From the NCBI RefSeq assembly GCF_016744155.1, contig NZ_JADGEW010000014.1, positions 1-64,000 of the forward strand: 64,000 bases of DNA. The letters run 5' to 3'. The notes below the pieces were generated by a model that saw only the letters and a program-made list of their open reading frames with translations, had not been told where the DNA came from and ran no database searches. The position numbers and the translations under genes are program-made. Below are positions 24,157 to 31,200 of the stretch, in pieces (within the stretch, counting starts at the first letter, position 1; each line of letters opens with the position of its first letter). The stretch is from Amphritea sp. (GTDB lineage Bacteria; Pseudomonadota; Gammaproteobacteria; Pseudomonadales; Balneatricaceae).

Positions 24157-25542
24157 ATGCTGCAGATCTATAACACCCTGACCAAAGAGAAAGCCCCATT
24201 TCAGCCACTGGAAGAGGGCAAGATCAACATGTATGTGTGCGGCATCACCGTATACGATTTCTGTCATATCGGCCATGCACGGGTAATGGTGTCGTTTGAT
24301 GTAATAACTCGTTACCTGCGGGCGCGTGGCTGGGATGTTACTTACATCCGTAACATCACCGATGTTGATGATAAAATTATCAAACGTGCAACTGAGAATG
24401 GTGAACGACCTGATCAACTGACAGGGCGTATGATTGATGCGATGCACGAAGACGAGGATAAGCTTAGTGTGCTGCGTCCTGATCAGGAGCCCCGTGCTAC
24501 GGCTCATATGCAAGACATTATCGATATGATTCAGGTACTGATCGGTAAAGGCTTCGCTTATGCTGCCTCTAATGGTGATGTCTATTACCGGGTTGAGCGA
24601 TTTGCTGATTACGGCAAGCTAACCAATAAGAATGTTGATGAACTAAGATCCGGTTCTCGGGTTGAAGTGCAGGATGCTAAAGAAAGTCCATTGGATTTCG
24701 TTCTGTGGAAGGCTGCAAAAGAGGGTGAAGTGAGCTGGGAATCCCCTTGGGGAGCTGGCCGTCCGGGGTGGCATATTGAGTGTTCAGCTATGTCTAAATG
24801 CTGCCTGGGTGATACCTTTGATATCCATGGTGGTGGGCCGGATCTGCCGTTCCCACACCATGAAAACGAGATCGCTCAGTCTGAAGCCGCTAACGGTGTT
24901 AAATATGTAAACACCTGGATGCACGCTGGTGCGGTGCGGGTGAATGCTGAGAAGATGTCTAAGTCTCTGGGCAATTTCTTCACTATCCGTGATGTGTTAG
25001 AAAAGTACGATGCCGAAGTGGTCCGTTACTTCCTCTCATCCGTACACTACCGCAGCTATATCGACTATTCAGAAAACAGTCTTAAAGAAGCGCGTAGTGC
25101 GTTGGAACGTTTCTACCAGGCTCTCAATGGTGTAGACGCGGTTGCCGCCGAATTGGATAACGATTACGAAACACGCTTTTATGCAGCAATGGATAATGAT
25201 TTTAATACGCCGATGGCAATGGCTGTTCTATTTGATCTGGTGAATGAACTGAACTCTGCCAAACGCGCTGGTGATGCTAAAGCTTCTGCATTAGCGGCTC
25301 AATTAAAGCAACTAGGCGGTATTCTGGGGTTGCTACAACAGCAGCCAGAAGCCTTCCTACAAGGCGAAAGCAAAGCGGGTGAGATAACCCCTGAGCAAAT
25401 TGAAGCTCTGATTCAGCAGCGAGCTGATGCTAAGAAAGGCAAAGACTTTGCTGCGGCAGACCAGATACGTGAAGATCTGGTAGCGCAAGGGATTATCCTT
25501 AAAGATAGCCGTGAAGGGACCTCTTGGTTCCGGGAGAGCTAA
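24157..25542 (+). CDS. cysS: cysteinyl-tRNA synthetase
   Basis: CysS charges tRNA-Cys. The 461-residue class I synthetase shows the Zn-binding Cys and HIGH motif in CGITVYDFCHIGHARV, further zinc ligands in HIECSAMS, and the KMSKS loop in KMSKSLGNFF. Length and start are normal. The gene ends with a tandem repeat (25544-25591) and a terminator at 25611-25636, which part it from the next gene group. Confidence 0.97.
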   Translation: MLQIYNTLTKEKAPFQPLEEGKINMYVCGITVYDFCHIGHARVMVSFDVITRYLRARGWDVTYIRNITDVDDKIIKRATENGERPDQLTGRMIDAMHEDEDKLSVLRPDQEPRATAHMQDIIDMIQVLIGKGFAYAASNGDVYYRVERFADYGKLTNKNVDELRSGSRVEVQDAKESPLDFVLWKAAKEGEVSWESPWGAGRPGWHIECSAMSKCCLGDTFDIHGGGPDLPFPHHENEIAQSEAANGVKYVNTWMHAGAVRVNAEKMSKSLGNFFTIRDVLEKYDAEVVRYFLSSVHYRSYIDYSENSLKEARSALERFYQALNGVDAVAAELDNDYETRFYAAMDNDFNTPMAMAVLFDLVNELNSAKRAGDAKASALAAQLKQLGGILGLLQQQPEAFLQGESKAGEITPEQIEALIQQRADAKKGKDFAAADQIREDLVAQGIILKDSREGTSWFRES

Positions 25543-25610: not shown

Positions 25611-25636
25611 AAGGCAGCTTGTGGCTGCCTTTTTTA
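25611..25636 (+). terminator. terminator of cysS
   Basis: GGCAGC and GCTGCC pair around TTGTG and are followed by a run of seven T. Confidence 0.85.
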
Positions 25637-25654: not shown

Positions 25655-26332
25655 ATGAGTCAACAGACAACACTGGTTATCTTCTGTAAACGACCATTGT
25701 ACGGCCAGGGTAAACAACGGATCGCTGCAACCCTGGGTAAAGGTGCTGCCTATCAGATTGCCTGCGCGCTTTTAAATTGCGCCCTAGAGGACGCACGAAG
25801 CTGGCCAGGACTGGTGGTTCTTTCTCCGGGTAGTGAATCTGATCGAGAGTGGGCAGAAGATCTGTTGCTCTTTAACTACCAGGTGGTGCCTCAGTGCGAA
25901 GGAAACCTGGGGCTGAAACTTAATTATGTTGATCAGTTGCTGCGAAAGCAGGGGGCTTCCCGACTGTTGTTTGTTGGCACCGATGCTCCTGAGCATACAG
26001 AGCAATGTTACCTTCAGTTTGACCAGTTATTACAGCAGCATGATATTGTTCTTTCCCCTGCTGCTGATGGTGGCGTTACCGCAATGGGAGGGAGTTGTCC
26101 CTGGCCCCGGTTGGATAGCCTGCCTTGGAGTACACCACAATTAGGTGAACAGCTGGCAGGTGCCTGTAAAGACTCGGGTTTTCAGGTTGCTTTCAGCTCC
26201 GCTGGATACGATGTAGATACAGAGGCTGATCTGCGTCGTTTACGGGAATCTTTAACAAACGATCTCAGGCCGGCCAGAAGACAGCTGCTACAGCTAATAC
26301 AAGTACTATTTGATGGGAAGGTTAAGGATTGA
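25655..26332 (+). CDS. TIGR04282-like (DUF2064) glycosyltransferase/nucleotidyltransferase-fold protein
   Basis: This 225-residue protein starts TLVIFCKRPLYGQGKQRIAATLG, close to the family pattern in which a conserved Lys and Arg follow a hydrophobic strand, and continues with LLFVGTDAPEHTEQC and VLSPAADGGVTAMG, the GT-A-like nucleotide-binding core. The family is often labelled arsenosugar-biosynthesis glycosyltransferase, but that function is not shown here and no arsenic methyltransferase gene is present. It is the first gene of a group with a radical SAM enzyme; its TGA ends one base before the next ATG. Confidence 0.75.
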   Translation: MSQQTTLVIFCKRPLYGQGKQRIAATLGKGAAYQIACALLNCALEDARSWPGLVVLSPGSESDREWAEDLLLFNYQVVPQCEGNLGLKLNYVDQLLRKQGASRLLFVGTDAPEHTEQCYLQFDQLLQQHDIVLSPAADGGVTAMGGSCPWPRLDSLPWSTPQLGEQLAGACKDSGFQVAFSSAGYDVDTEADLRRLRESLTNDLRPARRQLLQLIQVLFDGKVKD

Positions 26333-26333
26333 T

Positions 26334-27245
26334 ATGGAACTGATTCGTAGTCGTGACTGGTATACAACAGGGGATGGTTCGGACCGTGGTTATATTCGTC
26401 CGCATCTGCTTAAAGAGTTGTGGTTTCATACCGGCACTGCCTGCAATCTAAGTTGCGACTTCTGCCTTGAGGGGGCAGGCCCCGGTGATCAGCGCCTCGG
26501 ATTGGTTAAACTAGAAGATGTTGAGCCGTTCATCCACCAAGCTCTTGAGTTAGGAGTGGAGCAGTTCTCTTTTACCGGGGGTGAACCATTCCTGGCTAAA
26601 GATCTGGTAAAAATTCTGCAGCTTGCTTCCGAGTATGCACCTTGTCTGGTGCTGACGAACGGTACTGATGCACTGCAGAAACGTCTGCATCAACTGGTTG
26701 TTCTTAAAGAGAGCAAGTACCCAGTCAACTTTCGCGTCAGTATTGATTCACCGGTTGCTGCGGATCACGATAAAGGCCGCGGTGAAGGGATGTTTGATCT
26801 TGCCTTAACTGGAATGAAAGCGCTGTCTGATATGGGGTTTAATGTGTCAGTGGCACGGCATATGGCCGAGGGTGAAGATACCCCTGTCGTGGAGCAACAG
26901 TATCGGGAGATATTTGGCTCTCGAGAGCTGCCTGCGGATATCAAATTTGTCGCCTTCCCGGATTTTCTGCCTCCTGGCAGCCATGGGCACGGGCCGGATA
27001 TCAGTACAAACTGTATGACGCAGTACCATACAGAAGAAACCCGAAATAGCTTCATGTGCGCTTTCAGTAAGATGGTTGTTAAGCACAATGGTCGAATGCG
27101 GGTATATGCCTGTACGCTGGTGGATGATGATCCAGAATATGATCTGGGTGGGGATTTGAGACAAGCGTTAGAACAACAGGTCAGTATGAAGCACCATCGT
27201 TGTTTTTCTTGTTTTAAGTATGGGGCCTCATGCAGCGAAACATAG
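26334..27245 (+). CDS. radical SAM enzyme with SPASM-like C-terminal cysteine cluster
   Basis: The 303-residue protein has the radical SAM CX3CX2C motif at Cys37, Cys41 and Cys44 (ACNLSCDFC), followed by SFTGGEPFL at residues 79-87, the GGEP SAM-binding motif. Cysteines 227, 242, 260, 290, 293 and 300 near the C terminus (MCAF, VYAC, RCFSC, ASC) could hold auxiliary Fe-S clusters. It lacks the DUF3641 C terminus expected of ArsS. The start is ATG 26334 after AAGG; an earlier in-frame ATG at 26310 lies inside the previous gene. Substrate unknown; the two sugar-transferase-like neighbours suggest glycoconjugate or small-metabolite chemistry. Confidence 0.85.
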   Translation: MELIRSRDWYTTGDGSDRGYIRPHLLKELWFHTGTACNLSCDFCLEGAGPGDQRLGLVKLEDVEPFIHQALELGVEQFSFTGGEPFLAKDLVKILQLASEYAPCLVLTNGTDALQKRLHQLVVLKESKYPVNFRVSIDSPVAADHDKGRGEGMFDLALTGMKALSDMGFNVSVARHMAEGEDTPVVEQQYREIFGSRELPADIKFVAFPDFLPPGSHGHGPDISTNCMTQYHTEETRNSFMCAFSKMVVKHNGRMRVYACTLVDDDPEYDLGGDLRQALEQQVSMKHHRCFSCFKYGASCSET

Positions 27246-27387
27246 TTGGATCAGCGTCTGGAACCGCTTTGGCTGCGTTAAAATCTCGATCTAAATGCTC
27301 ACTTATTCCAATAAGCTCCGCTTTTTCTCTCGATTTTGCCTTGCCAAAACGGCACCATCTCGCTGACTTAAGCACTGGAGTGGGTGT

Positions 27388-28080
27388 TTGAATAATATCT
27401 CTGTTGTTATTCCTGTGGGTCCGGCTGAAACTGATCTGCAGCCTTTTCTTTCTCAGTTGTCTTATCTGAAACTGGCACGACAGATCATCTTTGTTTTTTG
27501 CCCTGAGTCAGAATCACTAAAACAGCAATTACCGACTGATCATCAGATTCAGTACTTAACGGTTGAAGCAGGACGTGCAATCCAACTCAACGCCGGAGCA
27601 CAGCGGGTTGAGTCTGGCTTTATCTGGTTTTTGCATCTGGATAGCCTGATTACTAATACTCAGTGGCAAACACTTAACCAGAGTCTAAAACGTAAACCCA
27701 ATTGTCTGCACTATTTTGATCTGCGGTTTCAATCCGATGGAAACGGGCCGATGTGGCTCAACAGTCAGGGAGCGAATCTTCGCTCCCGCTGGTTAGGTTT
27801 GCCCTTTGGTGATCAGGGTTTTTGTCTGTCGGTTCATCAATTTGAAAACTTGGGTGGCTATCCTGTTGATGCGCTTTACGGCGAAGACCATCTGTTTGTC
27901 TGGCGTGCCCATCAAAAGCGTGTCAAATTAGCCAATACCGGCTCAGTGTTGACTACCAGTGCGCGAAAGTATGCAGTGACCGGTTGGGGCAGGTTGACGC
28001 TGATCTATCAGCTCTATTGGATTAAGCAGGCGTTGCCACCGTTTTGGCGGCTATTAAAAAGTAAAATAGTCTCTCTTTAA
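27388..28080 (+). CDS. TIGR04283-like family 2 glycosyltransferase
   Basis: This 230-residue protein begins ISVVIPVG and contains GRAIQLNAGAQ, FIWFLHLDS in the place of the usual DxD-type motif, GDQGFCLSVHQFENLGGYP, and TSARKYAVTGWGRLTLIYQLYW, all typical of the TIGR04283 glycosyltransferase family. That family commonly travels with TIGR04282, as here. The last 40 residues are hydrophobic and basic and may touch the membrane. A 142-bp gap without clear promoter or terminator separates it from the radical SAM gene. Confidence 0.78.
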   Translation: MNNISVVIPVGPAETDLQPFLSQLSYLKLARQIIFVFCPESESLKQQLPTDHQIQYLTVEAGRAIQLNAGAQRVESGFIWFLHLDSLITNTQWQTLNQSLKRKPNCLHYFDLRFQSDGNGPMWLNSQGANLRSRWLGLPFGDQGFCLSVHQFENLGGYPVDALYGEDHLFVWRAHQKRVKLANTGSVLTTSARKYAVTGWGRLTLIYQLYWIKQALPPFWRLLKSKIVSL

Positions 28081-28127
28081 TCATTCCTGCAACCGCCTTT
28101 AACGGCTGTCTCTATTGGATTTTACCG

Positions 28128-29918
28128 ATGAATAAGTTCTCTACCCTGACACAGCTATTGCGATTTATGTTGCCTTATCGGCGCTATTGGATCGGTGCAA
28201 TGATTGCGTTGCTATTTACTGCGGGTATTACCCTGGCAATAGGACAGGGAGTGCGTTTGGTGATCGATAATGGCTTTGTAGCCGGTTCGGTATCGCAGTT
28301 GAATCAAGCGATTTTTTTGCTGGTGGTGATGGCTATCCTGATGGCCTGCGGCACCTTTATCCGTTTTTATCTGGTTTCATGGCTTGGTGAGCGAGTGACT
28401 GCGGATATCCGTCAGGCGGTATTTGATAATGTAATCGGTCTGCATCCGAGTTTCTTTGAAAAGAACCGCAGTGGCGAGATCATGTCGCGCCTGACCACCG
28501 ATACCACCTTGTTGCAGTCTATCATCGGTAGTTCCTTTTCGATGGCGCTACGCAGTCTGGTCACCACGTCCGGTGCGCTGGTCATGTTGTTTGTCACTAA
28601 TATTAAGCTGTCTCTGATTATTGTTGCTGGTGTTCCGCTGATTCTCCTGCCGATTCTTATTTTCGGTCGCAGAGTGCGATCGCTGGCCCGTAAAAGTCAG
28701 GATAGTATCGCTGATGTTGGCAGCTATGCAGGAGAGGTTATTCAACAGATTAAAACCGTTCAGAGCTATACCCAGGAAGCCCAGGAGAGCAGTGCTTTTG
28801 GTGTAGGAGTTGATCGTGCATTCAGTGTTGCACAACACCGTATTCGTCAGCGGGCATTTTTGATGGCGATGGTCATATTACTAGTGTTTGGTGCGCTGTC
28901 AGGAATGCTCTGGGTTGGTGGTTATGATGTTATTACCGGCGCGATGTCTGCCGGTGAATTGGGAGCTTTTGTCTTTTATGCGCTAATAGTGGCCATGGGT
29001 GTAGGTACGTTGTCTGAGGTGTACGGTGAGTTACAGCGAGCTGTCGGAGCCACCGAACGCTTGATGGAGCTTCTGCATGCTGAGAGTGAGATAAAGTCCC
29101 CAGACGAACTGGTGAACAGACCTGAGAAGGCTGAGACAGCTACCGCATCTTTGAAGGCGGAACTCTCTTTCGATGAGGTTACCTTTAATTACCCTTCACG
29201 CCCGGATCAAGCGGCGCTTGAAGCCTTTTCGTTAACCCTGAAAGAAGGCTCTATAACCGCACTGGTTGGGCCATCAGGGGCAGGTAAATCAACAGTATTT
29301 GAGCTTTTGTTACGTTTTTACGACCCACTTAAAGGCCGAGTCTGTTTTGATTCCAGAGATCTGCGGGACTTTGACCCCCGAGAACTGAGGCGTCAGGTGG
29401 CGCTAGTATCACAACAGCCGGCGCTCTTTACCGCCAATGTCATAGATAATATCCGCTACGGTAGAGCCGATGCCAGTAAAGAGGAGGTGGTCGCTGCAGC
29501 AAAAGCTGCCTATGCCCATGAATTTATCGAGCGTCTGCCGGAGGGTTACAATAGCGACCTGGGTGAGCAGGGCGTACGTTTGTCCGGTGGTCAGAAGCAG
29601 CGTATCGCGATTGCTCGGGCCATCCTTAATGATCGTCGAATATTGCTACTGGATGAAGCGACCAGTGCTCTGGATACTGAGAGTGAGCATAAAGTGCAGT
29701 TGGCGCTGGATACGCTGATGCAGGGCCGAACAACGGTTATCATTGCTCACCGCCTGTCGACTATTTTGCACGCCGATCAAATAGTAGTGATGGACCAGGG
29801 ACGGGTTGTCGGGATGGGAAGCCATGAGGAGCTGCTACAAAGCTCCGATCTTTATTCCCGGTTAGCTAAACTGCAGTTCAAGCGTGACTCCGCTATTCAG
29901 GAGTCATCGCAGTCATAG
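28128..29918 (+). CDS. ABC exporter, MsbA-like fused permease/ATPase
   Basis: The 596-residue half-transporter has six membrane segments in about residues 1-310 and a C-terminal ATPase with Walker A GPSGAGKST, Q-loop VSQQPAL, signature LSGGQKQR, Walker B RILLLDEATSALD and H-loop IAHRLST. It resembles the lipid/multidrug exporter subfamily TIGR02204. It works as a homodimer in the inner membrane. It lies 47 bp after the glycosyltransferase gene and may export that group's product, which is inference. Confidence 0.88.
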   Translation: MNKFSTLTQLLRFMLPYRRYWIGAMIALLFTAGITLAIGQGVRLVIDNGFVAGSVSQLNQAIFLLVVMAILMACGTFIRFYLVSWLGERVTADIRQAVFDNVIGLHPSFFEKNRSGEIMSRLTTDTTLLQSIIGSSFSMALRSLVTTSGALVMLFVTNIKLSLIIVAGVPLILLPILIFGRRVRSLARKSQDSIADVGSYAGEVIQQIKTVQSYTQEAQESSAFGVGVDRAFSVAQHRIRQRAFLMAMVILLVFGALSGMLWVGGYDVITGAMSAGELGAFVFYALIVAMGVGTLSEVYGELQRAVGATERLMELLHAESEIKSPDELVNRPEKAETATASLKAELSFDEVTFNYPSRPDQAALEAFSLTLKEGSITALVGPSGAGKSTVFELLLRFYDPLKGRVCFDSRDLRDFDPRELRRQVALVSQQPALFTANVIDNIRYGRADASKEEVVAAAKAAYAHEFIERLPEGYNSDLGEQGVRLSGGQKQRIAIARAILNDRRILLLDEATSALDTESEHKVQLALDTLMQGRTTVIIAHRLSTILHADQIVVMDQGRVVGMGSHEELLQSSDLYSRLAKLQFKRDSAIQESSQS

Positions 29919-30885: not shown

Positions 30886-31200
30886 TCAGCTGTAATGAAT
30901 AGCCAGCCAGATGGTGTCCTGGTTTTGTGATGTCCATTCAACCCGATGCCGCCTGTGCGCAGGAATATGGAGATAATCGCCGGTATTCAATTCGGTTGGC
31001 GGACTATCTGGGTAGCCAATACGTGCAGCCCCCTGAATAACCAGAATCCACTCATGCTGGTCCTGATCGTACCAATAGCTTTCAGGGGAGTGATGACCCC
31101 GGGAAACAATACGTTCTATTTTCAGATGGTTGTTTTCCAAAAGGGTGGTGAATAGTTCGCCGGGAAGCTGTGTTGGAATATTCGTTAATAGATTTTGCAT
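30886..31200 (-). CDS. small cupin-domain protein
   Basis: This 104-residue single cupin has motif 1 from about residue 37 (HHSPESYWYDQDQHEWILVIQG) and motif 2 in LNTGDYLHIPAHRRHRVEW. His and Glu residues that could bind a metal are present. It matches the small cupin family often annotated as cupin 2. No function can be assigned. It stands upstream of the crotonase gene on the same strand with a 98-bp gap. Confidence 0.75.
   Translation of the reverse strand: MQNLLTNIPTQLPGELFTTLLENNHLKIERIVSRGHHSPESYWYDQDQHEWILVIQGAARIGYPDSPPTELNTGDYLHIPAHRRHRVEWTSQNQDTIWLAIHYS

Follow-up and report, generated by a model that had tools for sequence, protein, structure and literature searches.

A radical SAM family as a candidate for the ArsS step in arsenosugar-type gene cassettes of Amphritea and its relatives

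What is made by a radical S-adenosylmethionine (SAM) enzyme whose gene is placed between two sugar-transferase-like genes? The question is raised by 64,000 nucleotides of an Amphritea sp. assembly (GCF_016744155.1, contig NZ_JADGEW010000014.1, positions 1 to 64,000 of the forward strand), a stretch referred to here as the window, in which a radical SAM protein (rSAM) is encoded between a TIGR04282-like and a TIGR04283-like gene and is followed by an ATP-binding cassette (ABC) exporter. A preliminary description of this DNA regarded the usual arsenosugar label as fitting badly and pointed to a pathway for a glycosylated or otherwise modified metabolite. Arsenosugars are common marine arsenic compounds. 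The answer favoured here, with a probability of about 0.72, is that the three genes are the central part of an arsenosugar-type cassette whose ArsS step, the formation of the carbon-arsenic (C-As) bond, would be performed by a second, non-orthologous radical SAM family.

Partners of rSAM and of ArsS

The repertoire around rSAM was compiled from 80 named loci, the best 80 of 449 matches, by a six-frame hidden Markov model (HMM) scan in which rSAM itself was identified in 80/80. The set is rich in Oceanospirillaceae, 11 of the loci forming an Amphritea block (L084-L094), and absences are overcounted because several contigs are short. TIGR04282 and TIGR04283 homologues were counted up to 6 kb from rSAM and all other genes anywhere in the locus. 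The core of this repertoire is a TIGR04282 homologue, present in 62 loci, and a TIGR04283-type gene, present in 56: 40 with the subtype of the window and 16 with a second, weaker one (38-99 bits to the window's subtype, two being cut fragments). Both occur together within 6 kb of rSAM in 52/80 loci; the association exceeds chance, and the three genes are conserved as a unit, which answers a check that had been suggested with the preliminary description. ArsM was identified in 33 loci, in 31 of them within 3.5 kb, and an MTAP-like phosphorylase (above 100 bits) in 29. An ArsC-like reductase was identified in 10, always 0.9-1.2 kb from the rSAM start; an eleventh match of 37 bits, 5.4 kb away, was excluded. 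ArsS was found in 0/80. Without the Amphritea block, the other 69 loci present TIGR04282 in 51, a TIGR04283-type gene in 46, ArsM in 33 and the MTAP-like gene in 29. In Endozoicomonas arenosclerae (L122) the genes for TIGR04282, ArsM, rSAM, ArsC-like, MTAP-like and TIGR04283 proteins are consecutive, and among seven further rSAM loci, from the class-wide sample described below, ArsM was identified in five (L195, L196, L197, L199 and L200).

The identity of these partners was examined by sequence and structure matches. The ArsM of L042 and L122 is matched by arsenic methyltransferases of known structure (5evj, E 7e-109; 4kw7, E 3.7e-91), and its C48, C76, C171 and C221, which we take to be the arsenite-binding residues, align with cysteines of 4kw7 and are kept in 28/28 rSAM-linked ArsMs longer than 300 residues. 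The best model of the ArsC-like proteins was TIGR02691 in 4/4 tested, at 132-148 bits and under its cut-off of 174. For the phosphorylase the best matches were MTAP models and structures; of three copies scored against TIGR01694 only that of L043 passes (276.6 versus 274.85). Finally, 11 of the 16 second-subtype TIGR04283 genes were tested by NCBIfam and 9 of these 11 are over the curated cut-off (183.8-202.5 versus 182), so the standard arsenosugar transferase family does adjoin rSAM.

The loci of ArsS were represented by 19 examples, hand-picked from the two genome samples described below and comprising TIGR04282 in 14, TIGR04283 in 14, an MTAP-like gene in 4 and ArsM in 4; as four loci were picked for a known MTAP-like gene and two for ArsM next to ArsS, the last two counts are not rates. 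The MTAP-like phosphorylases beside rSAM and beside ArsS are 42-45% identical. Since homologous partners are present at both, the same kind of cassette surrounds rSAM and ArsS.

The two enzymes were not identified together in any sampled genome. Among 95 related genomes rSAM was found in 33 and ArsS in 25, and among 369 genomes across the class in 8 and 182, respectively, with an overlap of 0 in each sample. Both samples together comprise 40 rSAM genomes (G000 counted once and G294, with its 36% relative, included), and ArsS occurs in 0/40. The two families meet at the level of the genus in g8, where G023 and G037 carry rSAM and G049 carries ArsS. The probability of no overlap by chance is 2.7e-6 by genome among the relatives and 0.004 in the class sample, both ignoring kinship; at genus level it is 0.010 for the relatives, or 0.08 when one shared genus (g8) is allowed. 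These figures, with the locus counts for ArsM, MTAP-like and ArsC-like genes, do not support the view that the arsenosugar label fits badly.

ArsM was likewise counted by genome, with Fisher tests that also ignore kinship. In the class sample it was identified in 5/8 rSAM genomes, 108/182 ArsS genomes and 19/179 with neither (P 5.7e-24); among the relatives, at more than 100 bits, in 9/33, 10/25 and 1/37 (P 0.00025), the last figure omitting two matches below 100 bits (G083 and G086). ArsM thus accompanies rSAM as well as ArsS, and ArsS genomes, too, often lack it (74/182 in the class sample).

In the TIGR04282 tree, the rSAM-linked and ArsS-linked partners are split by one branch (support 94/86, not starred and with a long-branch warning). 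The TIGR04283 tree needs two changes: of the 14 ArsS-linked sequences, 13 group in a clade that is sister to the second rSAM-linked subtype (19 rows), the two together having a support of 100/100. The window's subtype is separate from these and includes a single ArsS-linked member, L211. We read these trees as suggesting that two cassettes have long existed in parallel and have sometimes exchanged transferases, rather than a recent swap of one gene.

A MerA-like flavin adenine dinucleotide (FAD) oxidoreductase gene is a neighbour common to both cassette types, identified in 34/80 rSAM loci (e.g. L138:3852-5315) and 10/19 ArsS loci (e.g. L202 and L209) with one query from a broad enzyme family at E 1e-15, copies up to 8 kb away being included. 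The L041 copy includes a fused VTT membrane domain; in L143 the VTT gene is separate and located nearby. A relative of a sigma factor was identified within 7 kb in 8/80 rSAM loci; in an Emcibacter-like metagenome-assembled genome (MAG), an extracytoplasmic function (ECF) sigma factor and an anti-sigma-like protein are placed just before the cluster (L154:6373-7290). Stress control of the cluster by such genes is possible.

The window locus and the rSAM protein

The window genome is Amphritea-like, its closest named match being an Amphritea MAG with 99% identity. The locus comprises four consecutive genes on the + strand, preceded by cysS (24157-25542), with the coordinates and strand that had been given. 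The first (25655-26332) encodes a TIGR04282-like protein of 225 residues, a CofC-like nucleotidyltransferase of the DUF2064 type (PF09837, 54.5 bits); the second (26334-27245) is separated from it by the single base 26333, also as claimed, and encodes rSAM, of 303 residues (PF04055, 51.2 bits). The third (27388-28080) encodes a TIGR04283-like GT2 glycosyltransferase of 230 residues. The pair that marks an arsenosugar-type cluster, TIGR04282 and TIGR04283 beside a radical SAM gene, is therefore present in the window, with both proteins divergent and under their curated cut-offs (109.6 versus 134 bits and 140.9 versus 182 bits, respectively).

All 17 genomes of the genus keep rSAM, at 75-100% identity, and the three genes appear to be under purifying selection within it: the ratio of nonsynonymous to synonymous substitution rates (dN/dS) was 0.036 for rSAM in a single comparison, 0.08 and 0.12 for the TIGR04282 gene and 0.09 and 0.10 for the TIGR04283 gene in two comparisons each. 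The synonymous rate (dS) is near saturation, and two further rSAM comparisons gave no usable dS.

The six extra C-terminal cysteines that had been noticed in rSAM were confirmed. The protein presents the CX3CX2C motif at C37, C41 and C44, and the six are C227, C242, C260, C290, C293 and C300. When the window protein was aligned with 42 relatives (43 sequences in total), no variation was seen at the three motif cysteines, at C104 or at the first five of the six, and C300 was kept in at least 90%. The relatives are 53-100% identical, with the exception of the one in G294 (L194, G294:C11), which is 35-36% identical and may show an ancestral or other function. A scan of viral contigs with the rSAM profile returned 49 loci, all of them with only remotely similar radical SAM proteins (23-38% identity), which were set aside and not used; ArsS was represented among viral contigs by one fragment only.

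The fourth gene (28128-29918) encodes a TIGR02204 MsbA-related (MsbA_rel) ABC exporter of 596 residues, which clears the cut-off of its family (862.7 versus 780.4 bits). The preliminary description had counted it as one of the row. As a member of the pathway it was rejected, since it was identified (at more than 1000 bits with a single-sequence HMM) in 9/80 loci only, all belonging to Amphritea or to the Amphritea-like MAG L089; the exporter is a neighbour specific to this lineage, and its presence is not conserved across the clusters. Genome G008 of the genus has an open reading frame of 230 residues between the TIGR04283-like gene and the exporter (L056:6398-7090), with no Pfam match at E 0.01.

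Upstream, a terminator-like stem-loop of 9 pairs with a T run was located by consensus scan 3' of cysS (25611-25631, + strand), a possible upstream boundary of the unit; the region contains 6 such sites and shuffled sequences a mean of 4.8, which is not above shuffles, so the stem is suggestive only. Downstream, a small protein of the cupin type is encoded at 30886-31200; it aligns with the cupin portion of the Nif11/cupin model TIGR03890 at 87.2 bits, under the cut-off of 159.45.

Proposed pathway and competing explanations

All of the chemistry, as well as the source of methylated arsenic in the window species, we infer from the neighbouring genes and from the reaction of ArsS, an adenosylation of arsenic according to the available part of PMC12159101. 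ArsC would reduce arsenate and ArsM would methylate arsenite, both being encoded beside rSAM in relatives. rSAM would generate a 5'-deoxyadenosyl radical and join it to trivalent methylated arsenic, after which the MTAP-like phosphorylase would exchange adenine for phosphate. The TIGR04282 protein would activate the resulting arsenoribose-1-phosphate and the TIGR04283 enzyme would move the arsenoribosyl group to an acceptor such as glycerol.

Several observations weigh against an arsenosugar-type cassette with rSAM at the ArsS step. No ArsM was found in the window genome, as had been stated before, either with the family model at E 1e-20 (positive in 3/14 control genomes) or with an rSAM-linked ArsM query at E 1e-5, a search without positive control. 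An MTAP-like relative was not found there at E 1e-40, and the sole PF01048 protein of that genome is a nucleosidase of the MtnN type, not a phosphorylase. Such a nucleosidase would release the sugar without a phosphate at C1. It is here that the reading is weakest for the window genome. Among the relatives, ArsM was not found in 24 of the 33 rSAM genomes. Elsewhere, none of the partners was found at the rSAM locus of G294, and in 5/80 loci none of TIGR04282, TIGR04283, ArsM and the MTAP-like gene was found. An ordinary MTAP is also conceivable for the phosphorylase, given that the L043 copy is narrowly over the TIGR01694 cut-off, and the split between TIGR04282 partners implies that the products of the two enzyme types may differ. 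Finally, sequence comparison does not make rSAM a sister of ArsS: its alignment with the ArsS profile is full-length at E 6.5e-13, and a control MoaA-like protein of the same genome (L001) aligns nearly as well, over the N-terminal half (E 2.2e-12).

ArsS was not found in the window genome either. With ArsM, ArsS and the MTAP-like gene all missing from the searches, the pathway of this species would be incomplete or fed by imported methylarsenicals. The missing arsM is a weak argument in itself, given that 74/182 ArsS-bearing genomes are also without it. We tentatively consider it possible that a separately recruited rSAM makes C-As bonds and that in Amphritea it uses arsenic not methylated by the cell (imported methylarsenicals or arsenite), giving an undescribed arsenonucleoside or arsenosugar.

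A cassette dedicated to arsenic could also yield a different organoarsenical, with rSAM transferring another group or using another arsenic species (e.g. inorganic or monomethyl), and therefore being no simple replacement of ArsS. The ArsM and ArsC-like partners and the separation of TIGR04282 partners by enzyme type agree with such a product, as does a trio that remains under purifying selection although ArsM was not found in the window genome or in 12/17 genomes of the genus. We consider it unlikely, however, because homologous MTAP-like phosphorylases beside both enzyme types point to a 5'-substituted adenosine in both and TIGR04283 transferases over the curated cut-off adjoin rSAM; in contrast to rSAM, no more than three conserved cysteines are reported for ArsL, an enzyme that transfers another group (available part of PMC8552651). 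The metabolite without arsenic of the preliminary description is very improbable: ArsM and ArsC-like genes lie inside the cluster in many relatives, ArsM keeps its full set of cysteines, and rSAM and ArsS were never found in one sampled genome. What speaks for it is that neither arsM nor ArsS was found in the window genome, that the TIGR04282 and TIGR04283 proteins of the window are under their cut-offs and that arsenic partners are missing beside the G294 relative. Part of that description stood, namely that rSAM is not ArsS, that no arsM was found and that the trio is conserved; its doubt about the arsenosugar label did not.

An explanation restricted to this genus, and compatible with an arsenosugar-type cassette elsewhere, is that the Amphritea version was repurposed for another substrate after the loss of ArsM and the phosphorylase, or is a leftover. 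It would account for the genus counts (ArsM in 5/17 genomes and not found in 12/17; an MTAP-like relative in 0/17) and is rather unlikely in view of the retention of rSAM in 17/17 genomes, the low dN/dS of all three genes and the frequent lack of ArsM in ArsS genomes.

If the arsenosugar reading with rSAM as the C-As bond-forming enzyme is true, some marine bacteria without ArsS count among the possible makers of arsenosugars, a comparison of how two very different enzymes form the C-As bond becomes possible, and the common MTAP-like, TIGR04282 and TIGR04283 genes give a testable order of the later steps. For bacterial arsenosugar making, the available parts of PMC12159101 and PMC8552651 describe only the ArsM and ArsS steps. 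No description of the rSAM family was found in the open-licence literature searched, including the available parts of PMC12159101, PMC8552651, PMC12608789 and PMC10456119, which is not proof that it is unpublished.

rSAM beside ArsS and other known systems

No NCBIfam model was over its cut-off for rSAM among the best 25 of 55 matched. The top match was the Rv1681 family (NF049973), which resembles rSAM in its radical SAM domain; the score of 105.6 bits, over the N-terminal half only, is far under the cut-off of 380 and places rSAM outside that family. As a functional clue Rv1681 was set aside, its literature consisting of tuberculosis papers from which no function was obtained. The AlphaFold model of rSAM has a mean predicted local distance difference test (pLDDT) score of 88.5, and its top PDB matches are SkfB, BlsE, SuiB and MoaA, presumably all SPASM/twitch-type radical SAM enzymes. 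These are the best fold matches, but the query TM-scores are about 0.5-0.6 with a root mean square deviation of 7-11, and their pathways differ.

ArsS and rSAM are similar in length and share the CX3CX2C motif, an RGxGxF stretch and a C-terminal layout ending in H(x)CxxC...SC, together with homologous neighbours (TIGR04282, TIGR04283, MTAP-like, ArsM and MerA-like). They differ in that rSAM matches the ArsS model TIGR04167 over its N-terminal half only (positions 5-150 of 303) and was never found in one genome with ArsS (0/40). All 14 aligned ArsS sequences share DCDFNQ and HCYGCTAG-GSSCGG, two C-terminal motifs absent from the window protein, which presents YACTLVDDD and HHRCFSCFKYGASCSE at those places, the cysteine spacing being similar and the motifs different. 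True ArsS was rejected as an identity for rSAM, in agreement with the preliminary description, as the score of 45.1 bits is far under the cut-off of 300 and the C-terminal halves alone give a P of 0.0034. The claim that rSAM lacks the ArsS C terminus holds by HMM and does not hold entirely for the cysteines, whose C-terminal layout may resemble that of ArsS, weakly on statistics.

The last system is ArsL of arsinothricin biosynthesis, a radical SAM enzyme that adjoins ArsM and makes a C-As bond (available part of PMC8552651). It resembles the rSAM relatives in being a radical SAM protein encoded beside an ArsM. The differences are that, going by the same part of PMC8552651, ArsL has the three cysteines alone, whereas rSAM carries six further conserved cysteines in its C terminus, and that the rSAM clusters hold sugar-transfer genes.

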